Assembly: GCF_008632125.1 (NCBI RefSeq)
Contig: NZ_VWRN01000068.1
Span: forward strand, 1 to 64,000
Length of the DNA stretch: 64,000 nt
Reading direction: 5' to 3'
From: Cupriavidus cauae
Lineage (GTDB): Bacteria > Pseudomonadota > Gammaproteobacteria > Burkholderiales > Burkholderiaceae
Shown: positions 16,895 through 33,988 of the stretch, in pieces
How positions within the stretch are numbered: the stretch's first letter is position 1
How the letters are laid out: each line of letters starts with the position of its first letter
Made by a program: the position numbers and the translations under genes
The notes under the pieces: generated by a model
What the model was told of the DNA's origin: nothing
The model's database searches: none
What the model saw: the letters and a program-made list of their open reading frames with translations, nothing else

Positions 16895-18325
16895 TCAGAC
16901 CCGGCTCGGCATCGCCAGCAGATACCGGCGTGGATCGAAGCGCGTGGTGGCCAGCATCACCAGCACGACCGCGGCGAGGTGGTACCACCAGGCAGCGGCG
17001 AAGCTGCCGGTTGCGTCGTGCAGCACCGCCGCCAGCCACGGAGCGCAGCCGGCCAGCAGGAAGCCGCCGCCCTGCATCAGTGCGCCGAGCGCGGCGGCGT
17101 CTTCGGGGCGGGGCAGGTGGTCCAGCGCGACCACCAGGTAGAGAGAGAAGCAGCCGCCCAGGCCGGCGCCGCCGATGATGGCCCATGCGAGGGGCGCGAG
17201 GTCCGGCCATCCGGCCAGGCCGGCGAAGCCGATCGCCTGCAGGGCGAGCGCGAGGGCCAGCCATGCGCGGCGATCCGGGCTGCGGGCCGCCAGCGTCGGC
17301 AGCGCCAGCGCGGCAACGGCCTGCGCGACCGACATCACCGCGATCAGGCCGCCCGAGGCCGGACCGCTCCAGCCGCGCTCCTGGTAATAGGCGGCGAGCC
17401 ACGCGATCAAGGAGGCATAGCCGCCGTTCATCACGCCGAACGAGGCCATCAGCAGCCAGGTGCGTGGGCGCTTGAGCAGGCGCAGCACCGGAATCGCGGT
17501 GGGGCGGCTGGCTTTGGCACTGGCATCAACGGTGTGGGCGGCGTTCGCTTTGGCTCTGGCATCGGCGACGTGAGCGGCGTTGGCTTTGGCGCTGGCATCA
17601 ACGGTGTCGGTGGCGTTCGCTTTGGCCCTGGCATCGGCGACGTCGGCAGCGTGGGCTTCGGCTCTGGCATCAACGACGTCGTTGGCGTTGGCCCTGGCAT
17701 CGGCGACGTCGCGGCAAGATATCGCTGGCTCGACCGCCGCACCGCGCGGCAGCGTCCGCCACGCCAGCAGCCATCCGGCCCATGCGGGCAGCGCCCACAC
17801 CGCCAGCCCCGCATGCCAGCTGCCGCTCAGCCCGGCGATCCACGGCGTCAGCTGCGCGCCGAGCGCGCCGCCCGCCATCAGCGCGGCCGAATAGAGGCCC
17901 ATCACCATCGCCATCCGTGCCGGAAACTGGCGCTTGACGATGGCCGGCAGCGCCGCCTGCGCGGCCGCCGTCCCGAGGCCGCACAGCGCGGCCGTGGCGA
18001 TCAGCGCCGTGCCGCCGGGCCACGCGAGCCGCAACAGCGAACCAATGCCGACCAGCGCCAGTGCGAGCAGCACCGCGCGCCGCTCGCCGAGCCATCGGCG
18101 CATCGCCGGCGCGAGGCAGGCGCCGACGCCGATCAGCACCATCGGCAGCAGCGTCAGCCACGCCATGCCGCGGTAATCCAGCCCGGTGCTGTTGCGGATG
18201 ACCGGCGCCAGCGGGCCGATGCCAGTCAGGAAGGGACGCAGGTTCAGGCCAGCCAGCACGATGGCCGCCAGTGCCCAGCCCGGCGCGCCGATGCCGCGCC
18301 GGCCGGTGGGGACTTCAACTGCCAT
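16895..18325 (-). CDS. MFS transporter, CynX/NimT-like, with a repeat-expanded central loop
   Basis: A 476-residue major facilitator of the cyanate/nitroimidazole (CynX, YeaN) type. It opens with ALAAIVLAGLNLRPFLTGIGPLAPVI, the hallmark NLRP segment of that family, and has 12 hydrophobic spans. The cytoplasmic loop between helices 6 and 7 (about residues 205-275) is swollen by 12-residue units such as DVADARAKANAT and DTVDASAKANAA. Family members lack this and are nearer 390-400 residues. It is 5 bases downstream of the deaminase gene, so a substrate linked to purine or nucleobase deamination is plausible. The true substrate is unknown. Confidence 0.85.
   Translation of the reverse strand: MAVEVPTGRRGIGAPGWALAAIVLAGLNLRPFLTGIGPLAPVIRNSTGLDYRGMAWLTLLPMVLIGVGACLAPAMRRWLGERRAVLLALALVGIGSLLRLAWPGGTALIATAALCGLGTAAAQAALPAIVKRQFPARMAMVMGLYSAALMAGGALGAQLTPWIAGLSGSWHAGLAVWALPAWAGWLLAWRTLPRGAAVEPAISCRDVADARANANDVVDARAEAHAADVADARAKANATDTVDASAKANAAHVADARAKANAAHTVDASAKASRPTAIPVLRLLKRPRTWLLMASFGVMNGGYASLIAWLAAYYQERGWSGPASGGLIAVMSVAQAVAALALPTLAARSPDRRAWLALALALQAIGFAGLAGWPDLAPLAWAIIGGAGLGGCFSLYLVVALDHLPRPEDAAALGALMQGGGFLLAGCAPWLAAVLHDATGSFAAAWWYHLAAVVLVMLATTRFDPRRYLLAMPSRV
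17508..17712. repeat. in-frame 36-bp tandem repeat inside the MFS gene
   Basis: About 5.7 degenerate copies of a 36-base unit (on the plus strand like GTTCGCTTTGGCTCTGGCAT...GGC). It encodes 12-residue Ala/Asp/Lys-rich segments on the minus strand. Alternating units differ at fixed places (VADARAKAN versus TVDASAKAN), which suggests an older 72-base unit. The frame is kept throughout. Confidence 0.9.
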
Positions 18326-18330
18326 GGATC

Positions 18331-18774
18331 TCAACGGCCATAGACCGCATCGGCGGTGACACCCACATCGAGGCGGATCAGCGGCAGCGGCGGCGGATCG
18401 AGCGTCAGCCGCAACGCCTGGTAGGTGGCCTCGCTGGACAGGCCGTAGGGCGCGGCGTCGTTGTTGTCGAAGGCGTAGTAGACCTCCTGCACGCCGCTGA
18501 TCACCAGCGCGGCCAGGCACATCGGGCAGGGATGGCCGCTGGCATAGACCGCGCAGCCGCGCAGGTCCGGGCTCTGCAGGCGCCGGCTGGCGGCGCGGAT
18601 CGCCTCCATCTCGGCATGGCTGGTCGGATCGTGGCTGTGGACGATGCCGTTGACGCCGGTGGCGATCAGCTGGCCTTCACGCGCCAGCACGGCGCCGAAG
18701 GGCCGGCCGCCGCGTGCGCGGTTGGCCTGCGCCAGATGCACGGCTTCGCGCAACAGGGATTCGTGGTTAGACAT
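18331..18774 (-). CDS. nucleoside/guanine deaminase (cytidine deaminase-like fold)
   Basis: A 147-residue zinc deaminase. Both zinc motifs are intact: HAE (residues 53-55, with E55 as proton shuttle) in SHAEMEAIRAASRRL, and PCPMC (82-86) in GHPCPMCLAALVISGV. The order and spacing match bacterial guanine deaminases and the TadA-related family; PYGLSSEATYQAL in the C-terminal part favours a free-base or nucleoside substrate over tRNA. Cytoplasmic. It is the first gene of a two-gene unit with the CynX-like transporter (gap of 5 bases) and divergent from a LysR regulator. Confidence 0.85.
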   Translation of the reverse strand: MSNHESLLREAVHLAQANRARGGRPFGAVLAREGQLIATGVNGIVHSHDPTSHAEMEAIRAASRRLQSPDLRGCAVYASGHPCPMCLAALVISGVQEVYYAFDNNDAAPYGLSSEATYQALRLTLDPPPLPLIRLDVGVTADAVYGR

Positions 18775-18887
18775 GGGGATGCCTCGCGGAAAAGAGCCTG
18801 CGGGTAGAGGACCAGACTGTACGCGCGCGCTTGGCAATTGGGAAATTAAATGATGGAATGCGAGGCAGTGAGAAATCAAATAGCCCG

Positions 18888-18996
18888 GCAAAGGGCCGCT
18901 CAAAGAGCGCGCCAAAGACCTGCGCAAAGGACCTGGAAAAGGACCCGCGCAAAGGACCGCGCAAAGGACCGCGCAAAGGACCGCGCAAAGACCGGC
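18888..18996. repeat. 12-bp x 9 degenerate tandem array
   Basis: Nine units of consensus GCAAAGGACCGC, the last four nearly identical, with one extra base between units 5 and 6. It occupies the divergent intergenic space (18775-19047) between the deaminase and LysR genes, where promoters would be expected. Confidence 0.9.
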
Positions 18997-19047
18997 TCCA
19001 ATCCCTGCCCGAATCCCTGGACACATAGCCGCCTCGAACGCCACCCC

Positions 19048-19938
19048 TTGAACGACATCCTCGATCCCCAATTGCTGCGCAGCTTCGTCGCCGTGGCCGA
19101 CAGCGGCAGCTTCACCCGCGCCGCCGAGCGCGTCCATCTGACCCAGTCCACGGTCAGCCAGCAATTGCGCCGGCTCGAGGAGCAGTGCGGGTGCGCGCTG
19201 CTCGACCGCGGCGGGCGCTATGTCACGCCGACGCCCGAGGGCGAACGCCTGCTGGGCTATGCACGGCGGATCCTGCAGCTGTCGGGCGAGGCCGTCGCGC
19301 TGATCCGCGACAGCGCGGTGCAGGGCGAGATCCGGCTCGGCGTGCCGGAAGACTTCGCCGCGCAGACGCTGACGCCGGTGCTGGCCGATTTCGCCGACGC
19401 GTGGCCCGGCGTGCGGCTCGAGGTCACCAGCGGCCTGAGCCACGAGCTATGGCAGGGATTCCAGGAGGGCGACTTCGATCTGGCGCTGATCAAGCAGCGC
19501 GAGGGCAGCGCCGCCGGGCTCGCGAGCTGGCCCGAGCCGTTGTGCTGGATTGACAGCCGCCGGCGTCCCGCCTTCGGGCGCGAGCCGGTGCCGCTGGCGG
19601 TCTTTCCTGGCGGCGCCCTGTATCGCGGGGAGATGACGCATGCGCTGGAGGCGAGCGGCCGGCGCTGGCGCATCGGCTTCGTCAGCGCGAGTCTCGCCAG
19701 CCTCAGTTCGGCGGTGGCCGACGGCCTGGGCATCAGCCTGCTGCCGCGCCGCGTGGTCACGCGCGCGCATCGCGTGCTCGACGAGCCCGCGCTGATCGGC
19801 GCGGTGCCGCCGGTCGAGCTGAGCCTGCATGCCCGGCCGGAACCGTCGGCGCCGGCGCGCGACATGGCGGCGCGGCTGCAGGCCATGTGCGATGCCGTGA
19901 TGCGGCGCGACCAGCGGCGCGGCCAGTTGCGCGACTAG
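19048..19938 (+). CDS. LysR-family transcriptional regulator
   Basis: A 296-residue regulator. The winged helix is at residues 4-65: ILDPQLLRSFVAVADSGSF, AAERVHLTQSTVSQQLRRLE. The substrate domain follows. No ATG or GTG fits the family N-terminus, so I choose TTG at 19048 (LNDILDPQLL). The nearest upstream ATG (18850) would translate the 12-bp array into an Arg/Lys-rich leader. A clear ribosome site is lacking, so low expression is likely. It is divergent from the deaminase-MFS unit and probably controls it. Confidence 0.82.
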   Translation: MNDILDPQLLRSFVAVADSGSFTRAAERVHLTQSTVSQQLRRLEEQCGCALLDRGGRYVTPTPEGERLLGYARRILQLSGEAVALIRDSAVQGEIRLGVPEDFAAQTLTPVLADFADAWPGVRLEVTSGLSHELWQGFQEGDFDLALIKQREGSAAGLASWPEPLCWIDSRRRPAFGREPVPLAVFPGGALYRGEMTHALEASGRRWRIGFVSASLASLSSAVADGLGISLLPRRVVTRAHRVLDEPALIGAVPPVELSLHARPEPSAPARDMAARLQAMCDAVMRRDQRRGQLRD

Positions 19939-21238: not shown

Positions 21239-21757
21239 TCACTCCGCTGGCGGCAGCCGATACGGCACGCTGCCGTGCTCGTTGGTCGCCTCGACCAGGC
21301 GGATCAGATACAGCAGGAACCGTTCACGGTCGGCCGGCGGCAGATGGTCGACGGTGCGATCGTGCGCGCGCTGAACCGCCGCCTCCATCTTCCTGACCAG
21401 TGTCTTGCCCTTGCGGGTCAGCTTGACGAGCTTGACGCGCCGGTCGGTTTCGCTTTGCCGGCGCTGCAGCAGTCCGCGCGCCTCCAGCCGAGGAATGACT
21501 TCGGCCACCGTGGTGCGCTCCAGGCCTACCTCGAGGGCCACGGTGTTCTGGTCGAGTTCGCCGTGCTGCTCCAGTGCCGTCAACAGGCTGTACTGGACGG
21601 GCGTGATGCCGAACGCCTCGGTCTCCTCGAGGAACAGCGAGCAGTGGACCTGATGCAGGCGCCGGATCAGGAAGCCGGGGCGCCCCAGCAGCGTGGAGCG
21701 GTGCCGGGCGGCGTCGATCTCGGTCTGGATGGCGATGGGTCGTTTGGTCGTCGTCAT
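21239..21757 (-). CDS. MarR-family transcriptional regulator
   Basis: A 172-residue winged-helix regulator. The recognition region LDQNTVALEVGLERTTVAEV (about 77-96) and the wing RRQSETDRRVKLVKLTRKG are the classical MarR signature (D-x-R basic wing). It should act as a dimeric repressor released by an aromatic or heterocyclic ligand. It is divergent from the amidohydrolase-molybdenum hydroxylase operon, and the region between holds two 25-base elements that are good operator candidates. The metallohydrolase gene follows on the same strand. Confidence 0.9.
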   Translation of the reverse strand: MTTTKRPIAIQTEIDAARHRSTLLGRPGFLIRRLHQVHCSLFLEETEAFGITPVQYSLLTALEQHGELDQNTVALEVGLERTTVAEVIPRLEARGLLQRRQSETDRRVKLVKLTRKGKTLVRKMEAAVQRAHDRTVDHLPPADRERFLLYLIRLVEATNEHGSVPYRLPPAE

Positions 21758-22126
21758 GCGGTGCGGTGTTCGGAAACGGACGGCATTTCGCCGCCGGCGG
21801 TTGGCGCCAGGTCAGGGGGCAGCCGTTCCAGCGTGGCTTCGGTTGCCGCCATTATCGCCGGATAGGTGGTATGCCCCGTATTGCACAGCAACGGGGCAGG
21901 TTTGCTGCCCGCTGGGTTCGTATACGCCGATTCCCGGTGCGCCGGCACCAGCCTCGCGCATCCGGAATCGACCCGGATAAGTGGCATACCCCGTATTTCG
22001 TTGCGTCGACGGAAGACCGCAAAGCCTTGGCCGGCAAGGGTTTCCGGCAACGGGGGCCGGGCCTGCGGCATGCACTGGCAAAGTTCTTGCGTTTTGCAGG
22101 CAGCGTTTTCACCCCACGAGGCCAGC
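21758..22126. other. divergent regulatory region, MarR / amidohydrolase operon
   Basis: 369 bases with no gene. It holds two copies of a 25-base element (separate entry) and should contain the promoter of the long catabolic operon. A G/C-rich inverted pair, GCCCCGT (21873-21879) and ACGGGGC (21891-21897), adjoins the first copy. No sigma70 boxes could be placed with confidence. Confidence 0.6.
21858..21997. promoter_or_regulatory. twin 25-bp direct elements, probable MarR operators
   Basis: Copy 1 at 21858-21882 and copy 2 at 21973-21997 share 22 of 25 bases. Both run CCGGATA-RG-TGG-YAT-R-CCCCGTATT and are spaced 115 bases apart, about 11 helical turns. At the three differences the central GGTATGCC of copy 1 becomes GGCATACC, its exact reverse complement, so the core is effectively palindromic. 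Confidence 0.7.
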
Positions 22127-23410
22127 ATGACTGCAAGTAAGCGCGACATCGTTCTTCGGCAAGGCCGCGTCATCGATCCGGACGCCGGCATCGACGCGGT
22201 GTGCGATGTATGGATCCGCAACGGCCGCATCGCCGCCGTCGGCGACGGCTCGGCGGCCTTGCCTGCCGACGCCGATGCGGCCGAAGTCGTCGACTGCCGC
22301 GGCAAGCTGGTGCTGCCCGGCCTGATCGACACGCACGCGCACGTGTACCAGTACGTGACCGGACGCTTCGGGCTGAACGCGGACATGTGCGGCGTGCATT
22401 CCGGGGTCACCACGCTGATCGACCAGGGCGGCGCGAGCTGCATGACGCTGCCCGGCTTTCGGCACTACGTTGCCGAGCCGGCAAGCAGCCGCATCTACGC
22501 CTTCCTGTCCGCCTATCTGGTCGGCGGGCTCGAAGGCCATTACTACGCCGAGCTGTATCGGCCCGAATGTGTCGATGTCGATGCCACGGTGAAGGCCGCG
22601 CTGGCCAACGCCGACCTGGTGCGCGGCATCAAGGCCCATGCCGAGCTCGGCGGGTTTGCGCGGTGGGGCGTCGAGGTGATGCGTGCGTCCGCCGAGATCG
22701 GCCGTCAGGCAGCGCTGCCGGTCTACGTCCACTTCGGCCAGTTGTGGCCGATGCCTGGCCACCCCGAGCATGAGGTCGACCCCGACACGATCCTCGAGCA
22801 GGTGGTCGACATGCTCAAGCCCGGCGATGTGCTGGCGCATCCGTTCAGCCGCCATCCCGGCGGCTTCGTCAACCGCGACGGCACCGTGCACCCGCTGGCG
22901 CGCGAGGCGGCGGCGCGCGGCCTGAAGATCGACGTCGGTCACGGCTCGCACTTCAGCTACCGGATGGCGCGCACCGTGCTGGACGCCGGCATCGTGCCCG
23001 ATACGCTGGGCGCCGACATGCACGGCTACAACACGCACGTGCCGGCGCCAGCGGGTACGCCGGCGGAACATCCGGACCAGGACCATATGTTCCTCGGCCG
23101 CGTCCGCTTCAGCCTGGTGTCGGCGATGACCAGCATGCTGGCGCTCGGTTTGCCACTGGACCATGTGGTGCGCATGGCCACCGTCAATGCGGCACGCATG
23201 GCCGGCCTGAAGGACGGCGCCGGCACGCTGCGGGTCGGTGCCGAGGCCAACGTCTCGGTGCTGGAAGACCTGCGTGGCCGCTGGGTCCTCGCCGACAACG
23301 AGGGGACCCAGGTGGTGGTCGAGCGGATGCTGGAACCGGTGTTCTGCCTGCGCGCCGGGCAGCGCTTCGATGCGGCCGCGTCCATCCTGCCCGTTGCGCA
23401 GGTCGCCTAG
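22127..23410 (+). CDS. amidohydrolase/deacetylase-family metallohydrolase (COG3964-like)
   Basis: A 427-residue TIM-barrel hydrolase. Metal ligands in order are HAH (H70, H72), the carbamylated-lysine candidate K169 in VRGIKAHAE, H202 in VYVHFG, H272 in DVGHGSH, and D297 in LGADMHGY. This layout is that of the Atu3266-type (COG3964) subgroup of the amidohydrolase superfamily, whose known members cleave N- or O-acyl groups. It is cytoplasmic and the first gene of the operon. Paired with a molybdenum hydroxylase it may open or deacylate the hydroxylated product. The start at 22127 is the only one that fits the conserved DIVLRQGRVIDP opening; its ribosome site is weak. Confidence 0.85.
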   Translation: MTASKRDIVLRQGRVIDPDAGIDAVCDVWIRNGRIAAVGDGSAALPADADAAEVVDCRGKLVLPGLIDTHAHVYQYVTGRFGLNADMCGVHSGVTTLIDQGGASCMTLPGFRHYVAEPASSRIYAFLSAYLVGGLEGHYYAELYRPECVDVDATVKAALANADLVRGIKAHAELGGFARWGVEVMRASAEIGRQAALPVYVHFGQLWPMPGHPEHEVDPDTILEQVVDMLKPGDVLAHPFSRHPGGFVNRDGTVHPLAREAAARGLKIDVGHGSHFSYRMARTVLDAGIVPDTLGADMHGYNTHVPAPAGTPAEHPDQDHMFLGRVRFSLVSAMTSMLALGLPLDHVVRMATVNAARMAGLKDGAGTLRVGAEANVSVLEDLRGRWVLADNEGTQVVVERMLEPVFCLRAGQRFDAAASILPVAQVA

Positions 23411-23420
23411 GGAGATCGCG

Positions 23421-25910
23421 ATGACGACCCCGGCAGCGCACGGCGACCGCAGCAAGAACGGCGGCAACAACGGCGGCAACAACGGCGGCAAGACCGGCGG
23501 GAAGACCGGCGGCATCGGCGCGCGGCTGCGCCGCAAGGAGGACGACCGATTCCTGCGCGGCCGCGGCGACTATGTCGCCAACCTGCGCATGGTCGGCATG
23601 CGCGATGTCGCGTTCGTGCGCAGTCCGCTGGCGCATGCGCGCATCCGCGGCATCGAGAAGCCCGAAGGGCTGGCCGATGCGGTATTCACGCTGGCCGACC
23701 TCGACGGAGTGCGGCCCATCGTCGCCGACTCGGGGCTCGCCGGCTTCAAGTCGTCGGCGCAGCCGGTGCTCGCCGACGGCAAGGTGCGCCAGGTCGGCGA
23801 GATGATTGCGATGTGCGTGGCCCCGACCCGCGCGCTGGCCGAAGACATTGCGGCGCAGGTCTTCGTCGACTTCGAGGAGCTGCCGGCGGTGGTCGACATG
23901 CTGGCCGCACGCGAGGCCGGCGCGCCGCTCGTGCACGAGCACTGGGGCGACAACGTGTTTCTTTCGACGGCGGTCGGCACGGACGGCGACAACGAGGCCG
24001 CGTTGGCCGCGATCCGCGCGAGCGCGCCGATTCACGTCATCCGCACGCTGCGTACCGCGCGCCAGAGCATGGCGCCGATGGAGGGCCGTGGCGTGGTCGC
24101 CTGGTGGGACCGGCGCCTGGCCCAGCTGGTGGTGGTCACCGCGGCGCAAATGCCGCATATCAACCGCACGGGGTTGGCAGGCTGTCTGGGCCTGGACGAA
24201 GGGCAGGTTCGCGTGATCTCGCCGGACGTCGGCGGCGGCTTCGGCTACAAGGGAATCCTGCTGCCCGAAGAAGTCTGCGTCGCGTGGCTGGCGATGCGGC
24301 TGGAGCAGCCGGTGCGCTGGATCGAGGATCGGCGCGAGCAGCTGACGGCCAACGCGAACTGCCGCGAGCACGCCTATCGCATCGAGGCCTGGGCCGAGCG
24401 CGATGGCCGCCTGCTGGCGGTCGACTGCGAGGCCACGGTGGATTCGGGCTGCTATTCGTCGTACCCGTTCTCGGCCTGCCTGGAGGCCGCACAGGTCGGC
24501 AGCATCCTGCCGGGGCCCTACATGATGGAGCGCTATCGCTGCCGCACCTGGTCGGTGGCGACCAACAAGCCGCCGATCCTGCCATACCGCGGCGTGGCGC
24601 GCACCGGCGTCTGCTTCGCGATCGAGAGCGTGATGGACGCGATCGCGGTCGAGGCGGGGCTGGAACCCCATCAGGTGCGGCTGCGCAATCTGGTGCCGCC
24701 CGAGCGCATGCCGTTCGACAACATCACCGGCAAGCACTTCGACAGCGGCGACTATCCCGAATGCGTGCGACGCGCCGTGGCGGCCATCGATCTGCCGGGC
24801 CTGCGGGCGCGCCAGCAGCGCGGCGAGCCCGACGGGCGCCGCATTGGCGTCGGGTTTGCGGTGTTCTGCGAGCAGGGCGCCCATGGCACTTCCGTCTATC
24901 ACGGCTGGGGCATTCCGATGGTGCCGGGCCGCGAGCCGGCCGTGGTGCGGCTGACGCCGGACGGGGTGCTGGAGATCCGCGCCGGCGTGCATTCGCACGG
25001 GCAAGGCATGGAAACGACGCTGGCGCAGATCGCGCACGAGGTGCTCGGCGTCGACACCGATCAGGTGCGCGTGCTGCTTGGCGATACCGCGATCACGCCG
25101 TACTCCACCGGCACCTGGGGCTCGCGCTCGATCGTGATGGCGGGCGGGGCCGTGGGCCAGGCCTGCAAGCAGTTGCGAACACGGCTGCTGCACATCGGCG
25201 CCCATCTGCTGGGGCTGCCTGTGCCGGCGGCGCGCTGGGAGGACGGGGCGGTGGTGGGCGGCGGTGGCCGCGTGCCGCTGGCCGAGCTCGCCCACGTCTG
25301 GTACCGGCAGCCGCAGAAGTTGCCCGCCGATGTCGATCCTGCGGGGCTGGAGGTCATGACCACCTACCAGGCAACGCGCGATACCGGCACCTTCAGCTAT
25401 GCGTGCCATGCGGTGGCGGTCGCCGTCGATACCGAACTCGGCAAGGTCGAACTGATCGACTACGCGATCGTCGAGGACGGCGGCGTGCTGATCAATCCGA
25501 TGGTGGTCGACGGCCAGGTCTACGGCGGGGCGGCGCAGGGCATCGGCACCGCGCTGTACGAGGAGATGCGCTACAGCGAAGACGGCCAGCCGCAGGCATC
25601 GACGCTGGCCGACTACCTGCTGCCTGGCGCTACCGAAGTGCCTGCGATCCGCATCCACCATATGGAAACGCCGGCGCCCTACACCGAGTTCGGCCAGAAG
25701 GGCATCGGCGAGAGCGGTGCGATCGGCTCGCCCGCGGCGATCGTCAACGCCATCAATGACGCGTTGCGGCCGCTGGGCGCCGAACTGCGCGAGCTGCCGG
25801 CAAGCCCGCGGGCGATCCTCGCCGCGCTCGCCAATGCGCGTGCCAGGGATGTCCGCCACCCCGGCCACTTCAGCCCGATGCCGTCGTCGCCTGCGCAGGT
25901 GGCGGCATGA
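23421..25910 (+). CDS. xanthine dehydrogenase-family molybdopterin-binding (large) subunit
   Basis: An 829-residue catalytic subunit of a molybdenum hydroxylase, cytoplasmic. Molybdopterin contacts include GGGFGYKG (from about residue 271), LPYRGVARTG and GIGESGAIGSP, with the catalytic Glu at 764. The CO dehydrogenase AYxCSFR loop is absent, so CO is not the substrate; aldehydes, purines and N-heterocycles remain possible. The start at 23421 has GGGAGA about 6 bases ahead. Residues 12-32 are a Gly/Asn/Lys array, NGGNNGG...KTGG, from a 12-bp DNA repeat, an insertion before the conserved IGARLRRKEDDRFLRG start. It overlaps the FAD subunit by ATGA. Confidence 0.92.
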   Translation: MTTPAAHGDRSKNGGNNGGNNGGKTGGKTGGIGARLRRKEDDRFLRGRGDYVANLRMVGMRDVAFVRSPLAHARIRGIEKPEGLADAVFTLADLDGVRPIVADSGLAGFKSSAQPVLADGKVRQVGEMIAMCVAPTRALAEDIAAQVFVDFEELPAVVDMLAAREAGAPLVHEHWGDNVFLSTAVGTDGDNEAALAAIRASAPIHVIRTLRTARQSMAPMEGRGVVAWWDRRLAQLVVVTAAQMPHINRTGLAGCLGLDEGQVRVISPDVGGGFGYKGILLPEEVCVAWLAMRLEQPVRWIEDRREQLTANANCREHAYRIEAWAERDGRLLAVDCEATVDSGCYSSYPFSACLEAAQVGSILPGPYMMERYRCRTWSVATNKPPILPYRGVARTGVCFAIESVMDAIAVEAGLEPHQVRLRNLVPPERMPFDNITGKHFDSGDYPECVRRAVAAIDLPGLRARQQRGEPDGRRIGVGFAVFCEQGAHGTSVYHGWGIPMVPGREPAVVRLTPDGVLEIRAGVHSHGQGMETTLAQIAHEVLGVDTDQVRVLLGDTAITPYSTGTWGSRSIVMAGGAVGQACKQLRTRLLHIGAHLLGLPVPAARWEDGAVVGGGGRVPLAELAHVWYRQPQKLPADVDPAGLEVMTTYQATRDTGTFSYACHAVAVAVDTELGKVELIDYAIVEDGGVLINPMVVDGQVYGGAAQGIGTALYEEMRYSEDGQPQASTLADYLLPGATEVPAIRIHHMETPAPYTEFGQKGIGESGAIGSPAAIVNAINDALRPLGAELRELPASPRAILAALANARARDVRHPGHFSPMPSSPAQVAA
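23457..23516. repeat. in-frame 12-bp x 5 repeat in the molybdenum subunit
   Basis: Five 12-base units (AACGGCGGCAAC twice, then AACGGCGGCAAG, ACCGGCGGGAAG, ACCGGCGGCATC) encoding a Gly/Asn/Lys/Thr tract at the N-terminus of the protein. Confidence 0.92.
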
Positions 25911-26737
25911 AGCCGGCGCCGTTCGACTATCGGCGGCCCGACACCGTCGAAGCGGCGCTCGCCGCGCTCGCCGGCAGCAATGGCGTTGCCAAGGCCGTCG
26001 CCGGTGGCCAGTCGCTTGGCCCGATGCTGAACCTGCGGCTGGCACAGCCGGCCGAGCTGATCGATCTGGGCGGCATCGCGGCACTGCGCGAATGCCTCGA
26101 CGCGGGCACGTCGGTGCAACTGGGCGCCGGCATCACCCATGCGCAGATCGAGGACGGGCGCATTCCCGATCCGAGCCGCGGCCTGATGTCCTTCGTCGCG
26201 CGCGGCATCGCTTATCGGGCCGTGCGCAACCGCGGCACACTGGGCGGCAGCCTGGCCCATGCCGACCCGGCGGCCGACTGGATCAACGTGATGGCGCTGC
26301 TCGACTCCACCTGCATCGTGATGGGCCCGCGCGGCCAGCGCGAGATCGCGCAGCGCGACTGGATGGTCGGCGCATTCACCACGGCGCTGGCGGATGACGA
26401 AGTGCTGCTCGGGGTCCGCATCGCGCGCTTGAGCCCCGGCGCGCGCTGGAGCTACTACAAGGTCAACCGCAAGCCGGGCGAATTCGCCGAGGCGATCTGC
26501 GCCTTCGTCGACGACGGCGCACAGGGTAGGCGTCGCGCGGTGATCGGCGCCATCGACGGCGCGCCGTTCGTGATCGCCGACGCCGGCGCGCTGATCGAGC
26601 GCTGGGACGAAGCGCTGGCGCACCGCCACCTGTGCGAGGCCGGGCTCGAGCCCGGCACGCTTGAATACCAACTCCACGCGGTGGCGTTGCGGCGCGCCGC
26701 CGCGGCGCTGGCTGTCTTTACCGGAGAAGGCGCATGA
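25907..26737 (+). CDS. xanthine dehydrogenase-family FAD-binding (medium) subunit
   Basis: A 276-residue CoxM-type flavoprotein that passes electrons from the iron-sulfur subunit to the acceptor. The two FAD motifs are clear: AGGQSLGPMLNLRLAQP (about residues 32-48) and RGTLGGSLAHADPAAD (about 108-123). The C-terminal CO-dehydrogenase flavoprotein domain follows. Length is normal (about 270-290). Start and stop overlap both neighbours by 4 bases (ATGA), so the three subunits are translationally coupled in the order large-medium-small, as in cox clusters. Confidence 0.93.
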   Translation: MKPAPFDYRRPDTVEAALAALAGSNGVAKAVAGGQSLGPMLNLRLAQPAELIDLGGIAALRECLDAGTSVQLGAGITHAQIEDGRIPDPSRGLMSFVARGIAYRAVRNRGTLGGSLAHADPAADWINVMALLDSTCIVMGPRGQREIAQRDWMVGAFTTALADDEVLLGVRIARLSPGARWSYYKVNRKPGEFAEAICAFVDDGAQGRRRAVIGAIDGAPFVIADAGALIERWDEALAHRHLCEAGLEPGTLEYQLHAVALRRAAAALAVFTGEGA

Positions 26738-27231
26738 CACTCCCCATGCCTGTCGAACTGTGTGTCAACGGCGAGCGTGTCAGCGCCGCCATCGAGCCCC
26801 GCACGCACCTGGCCGACTTCCTGCGCGAACACCTGAACCTGACAGGCACCAATCTCGGCTGCGAGCAGGGCGTCTGCGGCGCCTGCACGTTGCAGGTCGA
26901 CGGCGTGCCGACGCGCTCGTGCACCGTGCTGGCCGTCAGCTGCACCGGCGCCGAGGTACGCACCATCGAGGACTTCGATGCCGACCCCGTGATGGCGCAA
27001 CTGCGCGAAGCCTTCAGCGCCGAACACGCGCTGCAATGCGGATATTGCACGCCGGGCATGCTGGCCACCGCGCGTGACATCGTGCTGCGGCTGCCGGATG
27101 CCGACGATGCGCGCGTCCGTCACGAGCTTGCCGGCAACCTGTGCCGCTGCACCGGCTATGTCGGCCTGGTGCGGGCGATACGCAGCGTGCTCGATGCCCG
27201 CAAGACCGCCGGCGCGGTCAATCGCACCTGA
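26734..27231 (+). CDS. xanthine dehydrogenase-family 2Fe-2S (small) subunit
   Basis: A 165-residue protein with two [2Fe-2S] clusters. The N-terminal plant-ferredoxin cluster is CEQGVCGAC (C43, C48, C51) plus C63. The C-terminal four-helix cluster is CGYCTPG and LCRCTGY. It relays electrons from molybdenum to FAD. All eight cysteines are present. The hydroxylase is therefore a complete heterotrimer, unlike the nicotinate dehydrogenase further right, which lacks an FAD subunit and uses cytochrome c. Confidence 0.94.
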   Translation: MTLPMPVELCVNGERVSAAIEPRTHLADFLREHLNLTGTNLGCEQGVCGACTLQVDGVPTRSCTVLAVSCTGAEVRTIEDFDADPVMAQLREAFSAEHALQCGYCTPGMLATARDIVLRLPDADDARVRHELAGNLCRCTGYVGLVRAIRSVLDARKTAGAVNRT

Positions 27232-27294
27232 CCAGAACCCGCGGGAACCGACACGACACGCTACCGAGGCGACCCACAGGAGGCTGAGCCCCGC

Positions 27295-27963
27295 ATGGAA
27301 CTCCAACAAACGATCTTGCTGCCGTTCGCGCGCGACGCGGTATGGCGCTGCTTCCGCGATACCGAGGGCGTGATCGCCTGCCTGCCCGGGGCGTCGCTGT
27401 CGGCGCCGCCACGAGACGGCCGGTTGCCCCTGACGATGACCGTCAAGCTCGGGCCCATCGTCGCGGTCTTCGCCGGCGACGGCGAGATGCGCCTGGACGA
27501 TGCCGATTACCGTGGCGCGGTGACAGGCACCGGTGCGGACCGCAAGAGCGGCTCGCGCGTCAAGGGCGAGGCCGCGTTCTCGCTGCATGACGTCGCGGAC
27601 GCGACCGGCGGGCCCGCCACGCGCGTCGACATCGCGGTCGACTATGCGATCGCCGGCAGCCTGGCGCAGTTCTCGCGAGGCGGCATCGTCCGCGAGCTGG
27701 CCGCCCGGCTGACCGAGGCCTTTGCCGCCAACCTGCGCCGCAAGCTCGAAGCCGAGGCCGGACCGGCCGTTACCGTTGCGGCGGCTCCCACGGTAGCCGC
27801 CTTCGCCGCGGCCGAGCCGCCTGCCTTTGTCGACACGGCGCCTGCGCCGTCGAGGCAGGCGCCAGCCAGTGCGCCGGCCAGTGCGCCGCTCGACCTCAAT
27901 GCCCTGTTCTGGCCCGCGCTGTGGGCCCGCCTGCGGCAGTGGCTGTCGTTTGGCCGCCGCTGA
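27295..27963 (+). CDS. CoxG-like SRPBCC protein with a C-terminal anchor
   Basis: A 222-residue protein. Residues 1-150 are a CoxG-type SRPBCC domain (ELQQTILLPFARDAVWRCF, EGVIACLPGASL, GEMRLDDADYRGAVTG). CoxG proteins accompany molybdenum hydroxylases and, in CO oxidisers, tether the enzyme to the membrane or carry quinone. After an Ala/Pro-rich linker (about 155-195) the tail LNALFWPALWARLRQWLSFG is hydrophobic and amphipathic, suitable for membrane contact. It lies 63 bases after the iron-sulfur subunit. A role in linking this hydroxylase to the respiratory chain is inferred. Confidence 0.85.
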   Translation: MELQQTILLPFARDAVWRCFRDTEGVIACLPGASLSAPPRDGRLPLTMTVKLGPIVAVFAGDGEMRLDDADYRGAVTGTGADRKSGSRVKGEAAFSLHDVADATGGPATRVDIAVDYAIAGSLAQFSRGGIVRELAARLTEAFAANLRRKLEAEAGPAVTVAAAPTVAAFAAAEPPAFVDTAPAPSRQAPASAPASAPLDLNALFWPALWARLRQWLSFGRR

Positions 27964-28021: not shown

Positions 28022-29215
28022 ATGACTCCCAAGCTGATCCGTACCGCGCTGCTGTCCGCGCTCCTGATGGGCGCCACCGCGCTGGCCCAGGCCCAGTCCA
28101 CCATCCGCATCGGCGCGCCGCTCGCGTTGACCGGAGGCCTGGCCGACGAAGGCAAGAAGCAGCAGGTCGCCTATGACATGTGGCTCAAGCGGGTCAACGC
28201 GGCCGGCGGCATCAATGTCGGCGGCACCCGGCGCAAGGTGGAGCTGATCACCTACGATTACCAGTCCGACGAGAAGCGCGCGCAGCAGATGGCCGAGAAG
28301 CTGATCACGCAGGACAAGGTCGAATTCCTGACCGCGCCCTTCGGCTCCGGACATACCAAGGTTGTCGCGGGCGTGGCCGAGCGCTATGGCATTCCCGTCA
28401 TGGCGTCGGCCGCGTCGTCGGAGTCGGTGTTCGACCAGGGCTACAAATACCTGTTCGGCACGCTGGCACCGAACGGCGGCCTGGTCGATTCGATGATCCG
28501 CACCTTCACCGCACAGATGCCCACGGTCAAGAAGATCGCGATCCTCGGCCGCGAGGACGTGTTTCCGCGCTCGATGGCCGCGACCATGAAGGCACATGCC
28601 GAGAAGGCCGGGCTCAAGGTCGTCCACAACGAATATTTCCCGGTGGGAGCGCTCGACCATTCCGCGTCGCTGTCGCGCATCAAGGCATCGGGCGCCGAGT
28701 GGATCTATATCACCGGCTACACCAAGGACCTGATCCTGGTGCGCAAGCAGATGGCCGATCTGGGCACGACCGCGCCGATCATCACGATGATCACCGGTCC
28801 GGCCTACCGCGAGTTCATCGATGCGCTGGGCCCGCTCGCCAACAACGTCAGCAGCGCGACCTGGTGGCATCCGTCGTCGCAATACAAGGCGGACGATGTG
28901 TTCGGTTCGACCAAGGCGTTCTACGACGAGTTCGTCGCCCGCGAGAAGCACGACCCCGACTATGTGCACGCCTCCGCGGCGGCGGCGCTGATCGCGCTGC
29001 AGAAGGCCATCGAGAAGGCGGGCAGCACGCAGGGCGCCAAGGTGCGCGACGCGCTGGCCTCGCTCGATGCGATGACGTTCTACGGCCCGGTCAAGTTCGG
29101 CCCCAATGGCATGAATGCCGGGCGCGACCTGCCGATCATCCAGGTCCAGTCGGGCAAGGTGGCCGTGCTGTATCCGCAAGCCGTCAAGCAGGCCGACCTC
29201 GTCGCCGTGCGCTGA
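28022..29215 (+). CDS. HAAT-family ABC transporter substrate-binding protein 1
   Basis: A 397-residue periplasmic binding protein of the LivJ/LivK type. The signal peptide ends ALAQAQ (about residue 25); the mature part starts STIRIGAPLALTGGLADEGKKQ. Other Peripla_BP_6 landmarks are VELITYDYQSDEKRAQQMAE and GIPVMASAASSESVFDQGYKY. These receptors bind amino acids, amides, ureas, purines or aromatic acids; in this operon the ligand should be the substrate of the hydroxylase/amidohydrolase pair. It lies 58 bases after coxG and opens a complete five-gene importer. Confidence 0.9.
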   Translation: MTPKLIRTALLSALLMGATALAQAQSTIRIGAPLALTGGLADEGKKQQVAYDMWLKRVNAAGGINVGGTRRKVELITYDYQSDEKRAQQMAEKLITQDKVEFLTAPFGSGHTKVVAGVAERYGIPVMASAASSESVFDQGYKYLFGTLAPNGGLVDSMIRTFTAQMPTVKKIAILGREDVFPRSMAATMKAHAEKAGLKVVHNEYFPVGALDHSASLSRIKASGAEWIYITGYTKDLILVRKQMADLGTTAPIITMITGPAYREFIDALGPLANNVSSATWWHPSSQYKADDVFGSTKAFYDEFVAREKHDPDYVHASAAAALIALQKAIEKAGSTQGAKVRDALASLDAMTFYGPVKFGPNGMNAGRDLPIIQVQSGKVAVLYPQAVKQADLVAVR

Positions 29216-29239
29216 CACGGACCGCCGGAAGCCACCGCC

Positions 29240-30103
29240 ATGAGTCTCTACGCACAAATCGTCGTCAACGGCCTGATGCTGGGCGCGCTGTACGCCTGCA
29301 TCGCCGTCGGCTTTTCGCTGGTCTGGGGCGTGCTGAACGTGATCAACATGCTGCACGGGTCGTTCATCGTGCTGGGGGGCTATCTGGCCTACTTCGCGTG
29401 GCTGCACTGGCAGGTCAGTCCCTTCGTGATGCTGCTGGTGGTATCGGTGGGATTGTTCCTGCTCGGCTTCCTGCTGCAGTACGGGCTGGTCAACCGGGTC
29501 GTGTCGCAGCCGGTGCTGACCACGCTGACGCTGACCTTCGGCCTGGACATGATCCTCTACAACCTGATGAACGTGTGGTTCGACGCGACGCCGCGCCGGA
29601 TTTCGCTGGACCTTGGGCGGCTGGACCTGAACGGCGTGATCGTGCCGAACGACCGGCTGCTGGCGATGCTGCTGGCGCTGGCGATGACCGGCGTGCTCTA
29701 TCTGGTGCTGCGCAGCTCGCGCATCGGCCGCGCGATCGTCGCGGTGCGGATGGACCGTGATGCCGCCACGCTGATGGGCATTCGCGTGGGCCGCGTCTAC
29801 GCGATCACGTTCGGCATCGGCGCGCTGATGGCCGGCGCCTGCGGCGTGCTGATGTCGGTGGTGTTCCCGATCACCACCAATATCACCGGGCTGCTGCTCG
29901 GCAAGGCCTTCGTGATCTGCGTGATCGGCGGGCTCGGCACGGTGCCGGGCGCGCTGGTCGGCGGCCTCGCACTGGGGCTGATCGAGAGTGTGGCGGGCAA
30001 CTTCCTGGGGGCGCAGAGCGCGATCCTGGTCGGCTCGCTGCTGATGCTGGTGCTGTTGATGACGCGGCCCACCGGGCTGATCGGCAAGCGAGGGTACCAA
30101 TGA
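29240..30103 (+). CDS. branched-chain-type ABC permease, LivH-like
   Basis: A 287-residue inner-membrane permease with about eight hydrophobic helices. Family landmarks are NGLMLGALYACIAVGFSLVW and VLNVINMLHGSFIVLGGYLA at the N-terminus and VCVIGGLGTVPGALVGGLAL-like sequence (VIGGLGTVPGALVGG) near the C-terminus, which forms the contact with the ATPase. It pairs with the LivM-like permease, overlapping its start by ATGA. Confidence 0.92.
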   Translation: MSLYAQIVVNGLMLGALYACIAVGFSLVWGVLNVINMLHGSFIVLGGYLAYFAWLHWQVSPFVMLLVVSVGLFLLGFLLQYGLVNRVVSQPVLTTLTLTFGLDMILYNLMNVWFDATPRRISLDLGRLDLNGVIVPNDRLLAMLLALAMTGVLYLVLRSSRIGRAIVAVRMDRDAATLMGIRVGRVYAITFGIGALMAGACGVLMSVVFPITTNITGLLLGKAFVICVIGGLGTVPGALVGGLALGLIESVAGNFLGAQSAILVGSLLMLVLLMTRPTGLIGKRGYQ

Positions 30104-31101
30104 ACGCCAACCGTTCCCGCTTCCCCGCGCGCGGCGCGCATCTGCTGTTCGCCGGCGGCGTGCTGTTGCTGGCCGCGATGCCGTTCCTGGCCGACAACTA
30201 CTTCGTGCGGCTCGCCACGTTCGTCTGCATGTACGGCGCGCTGGCGCTGTCGTGGAACTTCATCGGCGGCTATGCCGGCTATCCGTCGTTCTCCACCGCG
30301 GCCTTTGTCGGCCTGGGCAGCTATGTCGGCGGCCTGCTGCAGAACGCGGGCGTGCCGATGGTGCTCGCCTGGCTGGGCGCGACCGTGTTCGTCAGCCTGT
30401 TCGCCGCGTTGCTTGGCGGCGCAATCCTGCGGATGAAGGGCCATTACTTCGCGATCGGGTCGATCACGCTGGTCGAGGTGCTGCGCATGGTCGCCTCGCT
30501 GTGGGTCGATGTGACCGGCGGCGGTGACGGGCTCAATATCCGCATCCTCGGCGGCGGCCCGGACTTCGCCGGCCGTGTCTTCCTGTACGCGATGCTGGCG
30601 GTGATGCTGTGCGCGTGGGCCACCACGCTGGCGGTCGAGCGCTCGCGGCTCGGCTTCGGCCTGCGCTGCATCAGCCAGAACGAGGAGGCCGCCGATATGG
30701 TTGGCATCGACACCAACCGCTACAAGACCGCGGCCTACACACTGTCGGCCGTCTATTGCGGCACCGTCGGCGCCATCTACGCGTCGTGGGTCTCGTATAT
30801 CGCGCCGACCGACGCGTTCGGCATCCTGCTGACGCTGAAGGTGCCCGTGATGGCGATGCTGGGAGGACTTGGCACAGTGTACGGGCCGCTGGTCGGCGCC
30901 ACCGCCTTCGTGCTGATGGAGGAAACCATCTGGGCGCGCTTTCTCGACTACCACCAGGCGATCCTCGGCGTGGTGATCGTGCTGCTGATCTTCTTCCTGC
31001 CGGGCGGCCTGCTGAAGATCGACTATCGGCGCGGGCTGGCACGCATCCGATCGGCCGCCTGGGCGCGCGCCGGCCGCGCCACCGCGACGGAGGTGCGCTG
31101 A
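30100..31101 (+). CDS. branched-chain-type ABC permease, LivM-like
   Basis: A 333-residue second permease of the importer. MYGALALSWNFIGGYAGYPS and AFVGLGSYVGGLL are the usual LivM opening; RCISQNEEAADMVGIDTNRYK and VMAMLGGLGTVYGPLVGATA form the coupling region. The C-terminal 25 residues are basic and cytoplasmic. Its stop shares one base with the start of the first ATPase (TGATG). Confidence 0.92.
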   Translation: MNANRSRFPARGAHLLFAGGVLLLAAMPFLADNYFVRLATFVCMYGALALSWNFIGGYAGYPSFSTAAFVGLGSYVGGLLQNAGVPMVLAWLGATVFVSLFAALLGGAILRMKGHYFAIGSITLVEVLRMVASLWVDVTGGGDGLNIRILGGGPDFAGRVFLYAMLAVMLCAWATTLAVERSRLGFGLRCISQNEEAADMVGIDTNRYKTAAYTLSAVYCGTVGAIYASWVSYIAPTDAFGILLTLKVPVMAMLGGLGTVYGPLVGATAFVLMEETIWARFLDYHQAILGVVIVLLIFFLPGGLLKIDYRRGLARIRSAAWARAGRATATEVR

Positions 31102-31895
31102 TGGGCAAGCTGCTGGAGGTCCAGGCACTGGACAAGCATTTCGGCGGGTTGCATGCGACCCGCGAGGTCAGCTTCGCGCTGGAGGAAGGCGAGATCGTCG
31201 GACTGATCGGACCGAACGGCGCGGGCAAGACCACGCTGGTCAATCTGATCACCGGCGTGGTGCGCGCCGACGGCGGCTCGGTGGTGTTCCGCGGCCGGGA
31301 CGTGACCGCGCAGCGGCCGTGGCAGGCGGCCCGCAGCGGCCTGGCGCGGACCTTCCAGATCGTGCAGCCGTTTCCGCAGATGACGGTGCTCGAGAACGTC
31401 TGCGCCGGCGCGCTGTTCGCGGGCCACGCGGCGAGCCTGGCGCAGGCCGAGCGCGACGCGATGGACCATCTCGAATTCGTCGGCCTCGCGCACGAGGCGC
31501 GGCGCCCGGCCACCGCGCTGACGCTGCCGTCGCGCAAGCGGCTGGAACTGGCCAAAAGCCTGGCGATGCGGCCGCGCCTGCTGCTGCTCGACGAGGTCAA
31601 CGCGGGGCTGAACAGCGCCGAGATCGACCAGGCGCTGGCGTTGATGCGCGCGATCGCGGCGCGCGGCGTCACCATCCTGCTGATCGAACATCTGATGAAG
31701 GTCGTGATGTCCCTGAGCCAGCGCATCCTGGTGCTGCATCAGGGCGAACTGATCGCGCAGGGCGAGCCGCAGGCCGTGATCCGCGACGCGCGCGTGGTGG
31801 AGGCCTATCTGGGCAGCAAGTTTGCCGCGCGCCAGGCGGCGCATGGCGTAGCCGCGACGCCGGCGGCGGACACCACCACGGAGGTCCACCGATGA
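31101..31895 (+). CDS. ABC transporter ATP-binding protein, LivG-like
   Basis: A 264-residue ATPase of the importer. Walker A is GPNGAGKTT (about residues 36-44), followed by the LivG-specific ARTFQIVQPFPQMTVLENV. The ABC signature position reads TLPSRKRLELAKSLA instead of LSGGQ-like; Walker B is LLLLDEVNAGL. Note E-V-N in place of the usual E-P-T after the Walker B glutamate. A 20-residue C-terminal tail follows the last conserved helix. It overlaps LivF by 4 bases. Confidence 0.9.
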   Translation: MGKLLEVQALDKHFGGLHATREVSFALEEGEIVGLIGPNGAGKTTLVNLITGVVRADGGSVVFRGRDVTAQRPWQAARSGLARTFQIVQPFPQMTVLENVCAGALFAGHAASLAQAERDAMDHLEFVGLAHEARRPATALTLPSRKRLELAKSLAMRPRLLLLDEVNAGLNSAEIDQALALMRAIAARGVTILLIEHLMKVVMSLSQRILVLHQGELIAQGEPQAVIRDARVVEAYLGSKFAARQAAHGVAATPAADTTTEVHR

Positions 31896-32680
31896 ACGTC
31901 CAAACCCGCGTCGCCATGGGCGCTCGCACCAGTGCCGCGCCCGCCGGCGCCGCCGCGCCCCTCAACACGCCGCTGCTGGAGATTGCCGGGCTGCGCGCCG
32001 GCTACGGCGACGTGCAGGTGCTGTGGGGCATCGACCTGCAGGTGCCGGCCGGCGAGATCACCTGCATCGTCGGCTCCAACGGCGCCGGCAAGTCCACGCT
32101 GCTGCGGACGATCTCCGGCATGGTCAAGCCCTCGGGCGGGCGACTCGCGTTTGCCGGCAAGGACATGACCGGCGCCAGTCCCGACGCGATGCTGCGCGCC
32201 GGCGTCGCGCATGTGCCCGAAGGGCGGCGGCTGTTCCGCGGCCTGTCGATACGCGACAACCTGCTGCTTGGCGCGTATCTGCGCAGCGACAGCCGCGCCG
32301 ACATCGAGGCAGACCTCGACTTCGTCTTCACCATGTTTCCGATCCTGAAGACGCGCCAGAAGCAGGATGCCACCACGCTGTCCGGCGGCGAGCAGCAGAT
32401 GTGCGCGATCGGTCGCGGCATCATGTCGCGCCCGCAACTGCTGATGATCGACGAGCTGTCGCTGGGGCTGGCCCCGCGTGCGGTCGAGAACCTGGGCGAG
32501 GCGCTGCTGCAGATCAACCGCGCGGGGCTGACCATCCTGCTGGTCGAGCAGGATGTGCTGACGGCGTTCGAGCTGGCCCGCCATGCAAACGTGGTCGAGA
32601 CCGGACGCATCTCGCTTGCAGGCGACACGCGCGTGCTGGCCGACGATCCCCGTGTGCGCCAGGCCTATATGGGGATGTGA
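31892..32680 (+). CDS. ABC transporter ATP-binding protein, LivF-like
   Basis: A 262-residue second ATPase. Walker A is GSNGAGKST, then VPEGRRLFRGLSIRDNLLLG typical of LivF; signature LSGGEQQM; Walker B LLMIDELSLGLAP; H-loop replaced by LVEQDVLTAFELA (Gln, normal for LivF). The first 25 residues are a low-complexity Ala-rich extension before LLEIAGLRAGYGDVQV. It completes the importer and lies 6 bases before the DUF1116 gene. Confidence 0.92.
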   Translation: MNVQTRVAMGARTSAAPAGAAAPLNTPLLEIAGLRAGYGDVQVLWGIDLQVPAGEITCIVGSNGAGKSTLLRTISGMVKPSGGRLAFAGKDMTGASPDAMLRAGVAHVPEGRRLFRGLSIRDNLLLGAYLRSDSRADIEADLDFVFTMFPILKTRQKQDATTLSGGEQQMCAIGRGIMSRPQLLMIDELSLGLAPRAVENLGEALLQINRAGLTILLVEQDVLTAFELARHANVVETGRISLAGDTRVLADDPRVRQAYMGM

Positions 32681-32686
32681 GGCGGC

Positions 32687-33988
32687 ATGAGAATGGCAAT
32701 GGACGCGATCGATGCCAATGAAGCGGACCGCCGCGCCGCCAATGCGCGCGTGCTGGCGCGGCTCGTCTCGGTGCAACCCGCGTGGACGGCCGTAAGACCC
32801 GCGCGCGAGGCGCTCGGTCTGGAGCACCACACCCTGCTGCACGCCGGCCCGCCGCTGACGGACCCGTGCCGGCCGCCGGCACCGCTGCTCGCTTCGGCCG
32901 TGCTGTGCTGCCTGCACGAGGGCTGGGCGAGCGATGCGATGGCGGCCGAGCGCGCGATTGCATCCGGGCGCATTGCGTTGCGGCCGGCGCAGGACTTCGG
33001 CGCCGTCACGCCGCTGGCCGCGTTGATTTCGCCTTCCTCGGCGCTGGTGGAGGTCGCCGACGTCGCGGCTCCAGCCGCGTACTGCCCGCGTGCCCGGGCG
33101 TGGTCGCTGCTGGGCAGCGGCGCGGGGCCGCAGTTGCGCTTCGGCAGCCGGGATCCCGCGATCCTGCCCAGGCTGGCGTGGCGCGATGGCCCGCTGGCGC
33201 GCCGGCTGAGCGCCGTGCTGGCCGCCGGGCCGCTGCCCCTGCTGCCGCTGGCGGCGGCGGGACTGGCCGGTGGCGACGATCTGCATGCGCGTACCGTCGT
33301 GGCCAACGCGGCCCTGTGCGAGCGGCTGATCCCGGCGCTGGACACCCTTCCCGACGTGGCGGCCGACGCCACCGGCGAAGCAGACGCGTACGCGCTGGCG
33401 CAGATGCTGCGCCAGACGCCGCTGTTTTTCCTGACGCTTTGGATGGCGGCCTGCCACCTGATGCTCGAACGCGCCGCCGATGGCGGCCGCGACGCGGCGT
33501 CGACCCTCGTCGTGGCGCTGGCCGGCAATGGGCAGCAGGCTGGCATCCGGCTGGCTGGCCAGCCGCATCGATGGCATACCGCGGCTGCCGCCGCACCGGT
33601 CGGGCCGCCGCTGAACGCATCGGCGGCCGCGGCCACCGCCTCGCCGGTAATCGGCGACAGCGGCGTCATCGATGTGTTGGGCTGTGGCGGGCAGGCATTG
33701 ACCGGAGCGCCGGAGATCGCCACCGTGCTGGCGCCATGGTTGCCGGCCGACTGGCGCAAGCGGTCCGGAACCCTGCTGGCGGGCCGGCATCCGGGCCTGG
33801 CGCCGCAAGGGCTGGCCGTGGGCCTCGATGCCGCACGCGTCGCCGCGGGTTGCGAGCCGCTGACCGCGATCGCCATGATCGATGCCGCCGGGGAACGGGG
33901 CCTGCTCGGCCGCGGGCTGTTCGTGCCGCCCGCGACCCTGTTCGCGCAGGCCGCGCGGGACATCGCGGCAGCGGCCGGCGAGGCCTGA
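32687..33988 (+). CDS. diverged DUF1116 (YlbE/AllG-like) protein
   Basis: A 433-residue protein of the DUF1116 family. Shared landmarks, from memory of E. coli YlbE, are LLHAGPPLTDPC (residues 50-61), GRIALRPAQDFGAVTP, FFLTLWMAACHLMLERA, VALAGNGQQAGIRLAG and IGDSGVIDVLGCGGQAL. YlbE (AllG) belongs with FdrA and YlbF to oxamate carbamoyltransferase. Here the usual PCHEHDCVG motif is replaced by PAQDFGAVT (100-108) and the HNRNNAG motif by HARTVVAN, and no fdrA or ylbF partner is in the window. Carbamoyl transfer therefore cannot be assumed. It is the last gene of the operon, 6 bases after livF. Confidence 0.78.
   Translation: MRMAMDAIDANEADRRAANARVLARLVSVQPAWTAVRPAREALGLEHHTLLHAGPPLTDPCRPPAPLLASAVLCCLHEGWASDAMAAERAIASGRIALRPAQDFGAVTPLAALISPSSALVEVADVAAPAAYCPRARAWSLLGSGAGPQLRFGSRDPAILPRLAWRDGPLARRLSAVLAAGPLPLLPLAAAGLAGGDDLHARTVVANAALCERLIPALDTLPDVAADATGEADAYALAQMLRQTPLFFLTLWMAACHLMLERAADGGRDAASTLVVALAGNGQQAGIRLAGQPHRWHTAAAAAPVGPPLNASAAAATASPVIGDSGVIDVLGCGGQALTGAPEIATVLAPWLPADWRKRSGTLLAGRHPGLAPQGLAVGLDAARVAAGCEPLTAIAMIDAAGERGLLGRGLFVPPATLFAQAARDIAAAAGEA

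Follow-up and report, generated by a model that had tools for sequence, protein, structure and literature searches.

The solved structure closest in sequence to the MarR-family regulator considered here is that of PcaV from Streptomyces coelicolor (4fht, E=1.4e-16), also a member of the MarR family, which has in common with our protein an RRLxQxH stretch in the N-terminal helix and for which we know of no sigma-54 promoter. PcaV is a MarR repressor of a catabolic operon, pca (PMC5487221). It differs in having the protocatechuate pathway as its target, and its likeness to the present MarR is at the protein level. Another relative is BpsR of Bordetella (6pcp, E=1.3e-13), a MarR-family protein that regulates breakdown of the N-heterocycle nicotinate. 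The ligand residues of BpsR are Arg26 and His32 (PMC6837509), and in our reading of the structure-match alignment their counterparts in our protein seem to be R32 and H38. The place of His23 of BpsR is apparently taken by Phe29 in our protein, and BpsR also differs in that its targets are nicotinate genes. A more distant comparator is HucR, the urate-responsive MarR protein of Deinococcus radiodurans, whose structure we take to be 2fbk; the sequence match is weak (E=4e-4), and to our knowledge no sigma-54 element is known for it. HucR is divergent from a purine-catabolism gene, and a pathway metabolite lifts repression (PMC5487221). A literature search of partial coverage returned nothing directly relevant on this operator, on MarR proteins at sigma-54 promoters or on the pathway.

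The locus and its repeated dyad

In the window, by which we mean the whole 64,000-nucleotide stretch of Cupriavidus cauae DNA analyzed, marR occupies 21239–21757 on the minus strand and encodes a MarR-family winged-helix regulator of 172 amino acids (Pfam MarR, E=1.1e-12), predicted to be a repressor. Its winged-helix domain scores 48.1 bits against the PF01047 cut-off of 24.6, whereas the best score to the named MarR equivalogs (HpaR, SlyA, BilQ, Saro_0803, and others) is 60.1 bits against an NCBIfam cut-off of 200. The divergent operon on the plus strand begins with an amidohydrolase/deacetylase-family metallohydrolase (22127–23410; NCBIfam NF006689, E=5e-124, above cut-off) and continues with the large, FAD, and 2Fe-2S subunits of a molybdenum hydroxylase, which is xanthine-dehydrogenase-like, followed by CoxG (23463–27963, plus strand). 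There follow a branched-chain-type ABC transporter comprising a binding protein, two permeases, and two ATPases (28022–32680, plus strand; assigned from Pfam for the binding protein, from ORFs, and from synteny in relatives) and, as the probable final gene, an AllG-family protein, the oxamate carbamoyltransferase subunit (32687–33988, plus strand; Pfam PF06545, E=3e-51). The presence of an AllG-family protein at the operon end suggests that oxalurate or oxamate is a pathway product. HpxZ and amidase genes accompany the cluster in some relatives, and the gene set as a whole suggests that an N-heterocycle may be degraded toward oxalurate or oxamate. Next to the cluster, a cytidine/guanine-deaminase-like gene (18331–18819) is divergent from a LysR gene (18850–19938), and an ORF at 16895–18520 encodes an MFS-type transporter with an internal repetitive insert of VADARAKAN-like units. 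Among the mapped relatives, the neighboring LysR and lactonase genes are present in the two C. gilardii loci only.

The 369-bp gap between marR and the operon (21758–22126) contains two 25-nt elements which, as an earlier note on this DNA had reported and direct sequence comparison confirms, share 22 of 25 bases at a start-to-start distance of 115 bp: CCGGATAGGTGGTATGCCCCGTATT at 21858–21882 and CCGGATAAGTGGCATACCCCGTATT at 21973–21997. This is the top ungapped 25-mer repeat of the gap, and 1000 dinucleotide shuffles peak at 21 matching bases (0/1000). The core had also been described as self-complementary, and in this case GGTATGCC is the exact reverse complement of GGCATACC, but neither core is self-complementary alone. 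The symmetry reaches past the 8-bp core, with the whole element forming an imperfect 20-bp dyad, ATAnGnGGYATRCCnCnTAT, in which 14 of 20 positions are symmetric. The predicted operators, to neither of which a strand is assigned, are the imperfect 20-bp dyad ATAGGTGGTATGCCCCGTAT at 21862–21881, which is marR-proximal (operator 1), and ATAAGTGGCATACCCCGTAT at 21977–21996 (operator 2), both proposed from the repeat, the dyad symmetry, and conservation in relatives. The recognized consensus would approximate ATrYGkGGTRTACCmCRYAT, with an alternating pyrimidine-purine center.

Many unrelated copies across the genome would, in the terms of the earlier note, have marked the element as a dispersed repeat. 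A pattern search with the dyad over the 5.75-Mb genome, allowing up to two mismatches, returned just two good copies, which are both window sites, and one two-mismatch place elsewhere, with one match to the reversed pattern in the same genome as a control. Because there are only two good copies, this search rules out a dispersed repeat.

Conservation of the sites and their link to MarR

With only the two window sites as input, a matrix places its top rank in the MarR/operon gap in eight of a first set of nine related loci (18–19.9 kb each), compared with a mean of 0.47 loci and a maximum of 5 for 400 column-permuted matrices. The exception is G064, where a better-scoring site adjoins its second MarR gene. 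Upstream of that gene, whose product is 54% identical and which lies in the same cluster, there is a related perfect dyad, ATGTGTGGTGCACCACGTAT, at L073:2181–2200. In a second set of 14 further loci from a family search, one of which is apparently an earlier Caballeronia record with identical coordinates, the top rank fell in the gap in 13, and with later searches included, sites are found beside orthologous marR in 25 distinct Burkholderiaceae genomes. Being mutually related, these loci do not represent independent events, though when they are counted as about four clades, by our estimate, the conservation is still far from chance. All zero-mismatch sites in 60 Cupriavidus genomes are at loci with this MarR. 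The marR orthologs diverge from amidohydrolase or molybdenum hydroxylase genes and are adjacent to them in all nine mapped relatives, and in G028 and G005, where the amidohydrolase gene is displaced by ~9 kb, it carries its own site about 20–45 bp upstream. The C. gilardii trio are close relatives, and among them the sites show no clear excess of conservation over the remaining gap.

The usual arrangement in relatives is of three sites ~100 bp apart, operon-proximal, middle, and marR-proximal, with spacings of 102/102, 101/103, 101/104, 102/112, 101/91, 100/93, and 101/92 bp. Two sites are present in the C. gilardii genomes, 115 bp apart, and in C. necator A5-1, 104 bp apart, and these are taken to be the middle and marR-proximal members of the array, making operator 2 the counterpart of the middle site; the ancestral array probably had three. 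Neighboring-site spacing among relatives spans 72 to 136 bp, with length differences near one helical turn in the pairs 115/104, 83/72, 102/91–93, and 102/112. The spacing in the window had been read as close to 11 helical turns, which would allow looping or cooperative repression. At 10.5 bp per turn 115 bp corresponds to 10.95 turns, and the Rayleigh phase test falls short of significance both for all intervals (p about 0.08) and for interval clusters (p about 0.19).

Palindromic dyads that face a divergent operon, are unique to the gap, and are conserved conform to what is typical of the MarR family. The motif is absent beside MarR relatives of about 45–49% identity in the Cupriavidus group, and also beside those of Azospirillum and Pacificitalea (relatives of ~45–54% identity searched). 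The recognition helix reads ER[TS][TS]VAEV in this MarR group, whereas it is DRTTT-[MA]-DV in the 45–49% relatives. Upstream of marR in those relatives (L014–L033) there is another conserved stretch, TGTCAGTGTGCATACAAAATGG, represented in L030 by a dyad different from ours, CTTGTCAGCATGCTAACAAG, and this stretch is possibly their own operator. Neither R32 nor H38 varies in the MarR alignment, and their apparent match to the ligand-contacting residues of BpsR makes it plausible that the effector is a small, acidic compound of aromatic or heterocyclic type. From the computed co-occurrence of unique, conserved sites with this MarR we infer binding, and both dyads are very likely operators of the adjacent divergent MarR. 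That part of the earlier reading stands, the sites being unique in the genome, kept beside orthologous marR, following a target that has moved, and missing beside the more distant relatives. The 20-bp extent of the dyad, the probable three-site ancestry, and the sigma-54-type promoter described below go beyond that reading.

Promoters and proposed regulation

A sigma-54 promoter requires rpoN and an enhancer-binding activator, and the genome contains 19 matches to HTH_8 domains, which are common in such activators. The sigma-54-type promoter predicted here, CTGGCAAAGTTCTTGCG, is at 22075–22091 on the plus strand (GG at 22077–22078, GC at 22089–22090), and its position is kept in relatives, although the window match by itself is 9/12 (p=0.17). 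The motif GG-N8-TTGC is found 50–54 bp ahead of the amidohydrolase ATG in the first locus set and 52–62 bp ahead in the second, so that at every locus with an assignable amidohydrolase start a sigma-54-type GG-N10-GC precedes the ATG by 50–62 bp. The G021 start codon was identified by visual inspection of the printed frame, P. largidicola has the element with its ATG left unassigned by the script, and L109 and L112 of the second set yielded no amidohydrolase start. The element block is conserved in C. necator A5-1, and G027, G028, and G005 have 11/12 matches upstream of the hydroxylase gene (p 0.002–0.006); the displaced amidohydrolase promoters of G028 and G005 have no sigma-54 element. Since the idea arose from viewing the alignment, these p-values are post hoc, and the fixed distance to the ATG across many loci is the better argument that the operon promoter is, as seems likely, sigma-54-dependent. 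A sigma-70 promoter scan of the gap gave nothing above threshold; a weak candidate −10 for marR (GATAAT, 21851–21856, minus strand), kept in the C. gilardii trio, lies just downstream of operator 1.

The −12 end of the promoter overlaps the operon-proximal operator in Paraburkholderia, Caballeronia, G075, G064, and G021. This operator is missing from the window, where the remaining two have their centers at about −115 and −230 relative to the start that the −12 element predicts. Abutting operator 1 is a weak candidate NtrC-like box, TGCACAGCAACGGGGCA (21882–21898, plus strand; 9/10 to TGCAC-N7-GTGCA, p=0.03), whose position is kept in relatives as [T/G]CACCA..., and a second conserved spacer block, GGCACCAGCCTCGCGCA (21944–21960, plus strand), is a weak candidate enhancer-binding-protein site on the basis of conservation and box scoring. 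The NtrC-like boxes are weak in most relatives, reaching p<0.05 in C. gilardii loci only, and the 25 places in the window's own genome that match the NtrC consensus with at most one mismatch include none within this gap.

In the regulation that we infer from these elements, one MarR dimer would occupy each 20-bp dyad, and in the absence of effector MarR at operator 1 would repress marR itself, while MarR at both operators would repress the amidohydrolase/molybdenum-hydroxylase/CoxG/ABC-transporter/AllG operon. Because transcription of the operon most likely depends on sigma-54 (−24/−12 at 22075–22091), the upstream operators may act by obstructing an enhancer-binding protein bound in the stretch that separates them, or by keeping it from reaching the promoter. 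Binding of the substrate or an early intermediate would cause MarR to leave the DNA, and the operon could then answer its activator, perhaps NtrC under nitrogen limitation. We tentatively suggest, though at somewhat less than even chances, that MarR brackets the enhancer of a sigma-54 promoter, with two upstream operators flanking the activator sites, such that release by substrate and nitrogen limitation must coincide for the heterocycle operon to be expressed. In many relatives the −12 element is, in addition, covered by a third operator.

Other explanations of the pair were weighed. Short two-copy repeats frequently arise by chance, but with 0/1000 shuffles reaching 22/25, two copies only in the genome, and sites conserved across genera, the idea of a fortuitous resemblance, or of a dispersed repeat that regulates nothing, is already contradicted and has a negligible probability. 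The dyads might instead be bound by another regulator encoded elsewhere, for example of GntR, LysR, or TetR type, with MarR an incidental neighbor; the LysR gene is 2 kb away. This is quite improbable, given that the motif accompanies this group of MarR orthologs in 25 genomes and is missing beside the ~45–49% relatives, and that the LysR gene is confined to C. gilardii loci among those mapped.

If MarR is the binding protein, it could act differently from the bracketing repression proposed above. MarR dimers on operators 1 and 2 might bridge into a 115-bp loop required for repression, as a spacing close to 11 turns, its retention at exactly 115 bp in three C. gilardii-type genomes despite a diverged spacer, and the several length differences near 10–11 bp between relatives would allow. 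We consider such a loop unlikely, as the phase test was not significant, the 77- and 88-bp intervals are out of phase, MarR proteins are mostly simple homodimers (PMC5487221), and one dimer has just one pair of DNA-binding heads. That the operators in this genome are far upstream of where the operon is predicted to start might also be taken to mean that MarR activates the operon rather than represses it, as some MarR proteins are activators, but the majority of those characterized are repressors (PMC5487221), and the extra operator over the −12 element in Paraburkholderia, Caballeronia, G075, G064, and G021 is in a blocking position, which leaves activation decidedly improbable.

Comparison with known systems

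For an uncharacterized MarR group of the Burkholderiaceae, which would control a probable nitrogen-heterocycle pathway, the analysis yields an operator code and a regulon that can be put to the test, along with a motif that could serve in effector finding and sensor building. It also offers a small, well-bounded case of how a simple dimeric repressor might silence a sigma-54 promoter from afar. The predicted system shares with HucR its divergence from a catabolic gene, but HucR has a single operator in its intergenic region (PMC5487221), compared with two candidate sites here. The switch is slightly unusual through the predicted sigma-54 promoter beside MarR sites, yet it is not a new type of system. 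What is new here is the sigma-54-type element at a near-fixed distance before the operon ATG in relatives, together with window operators that flank a likely enhancer region.
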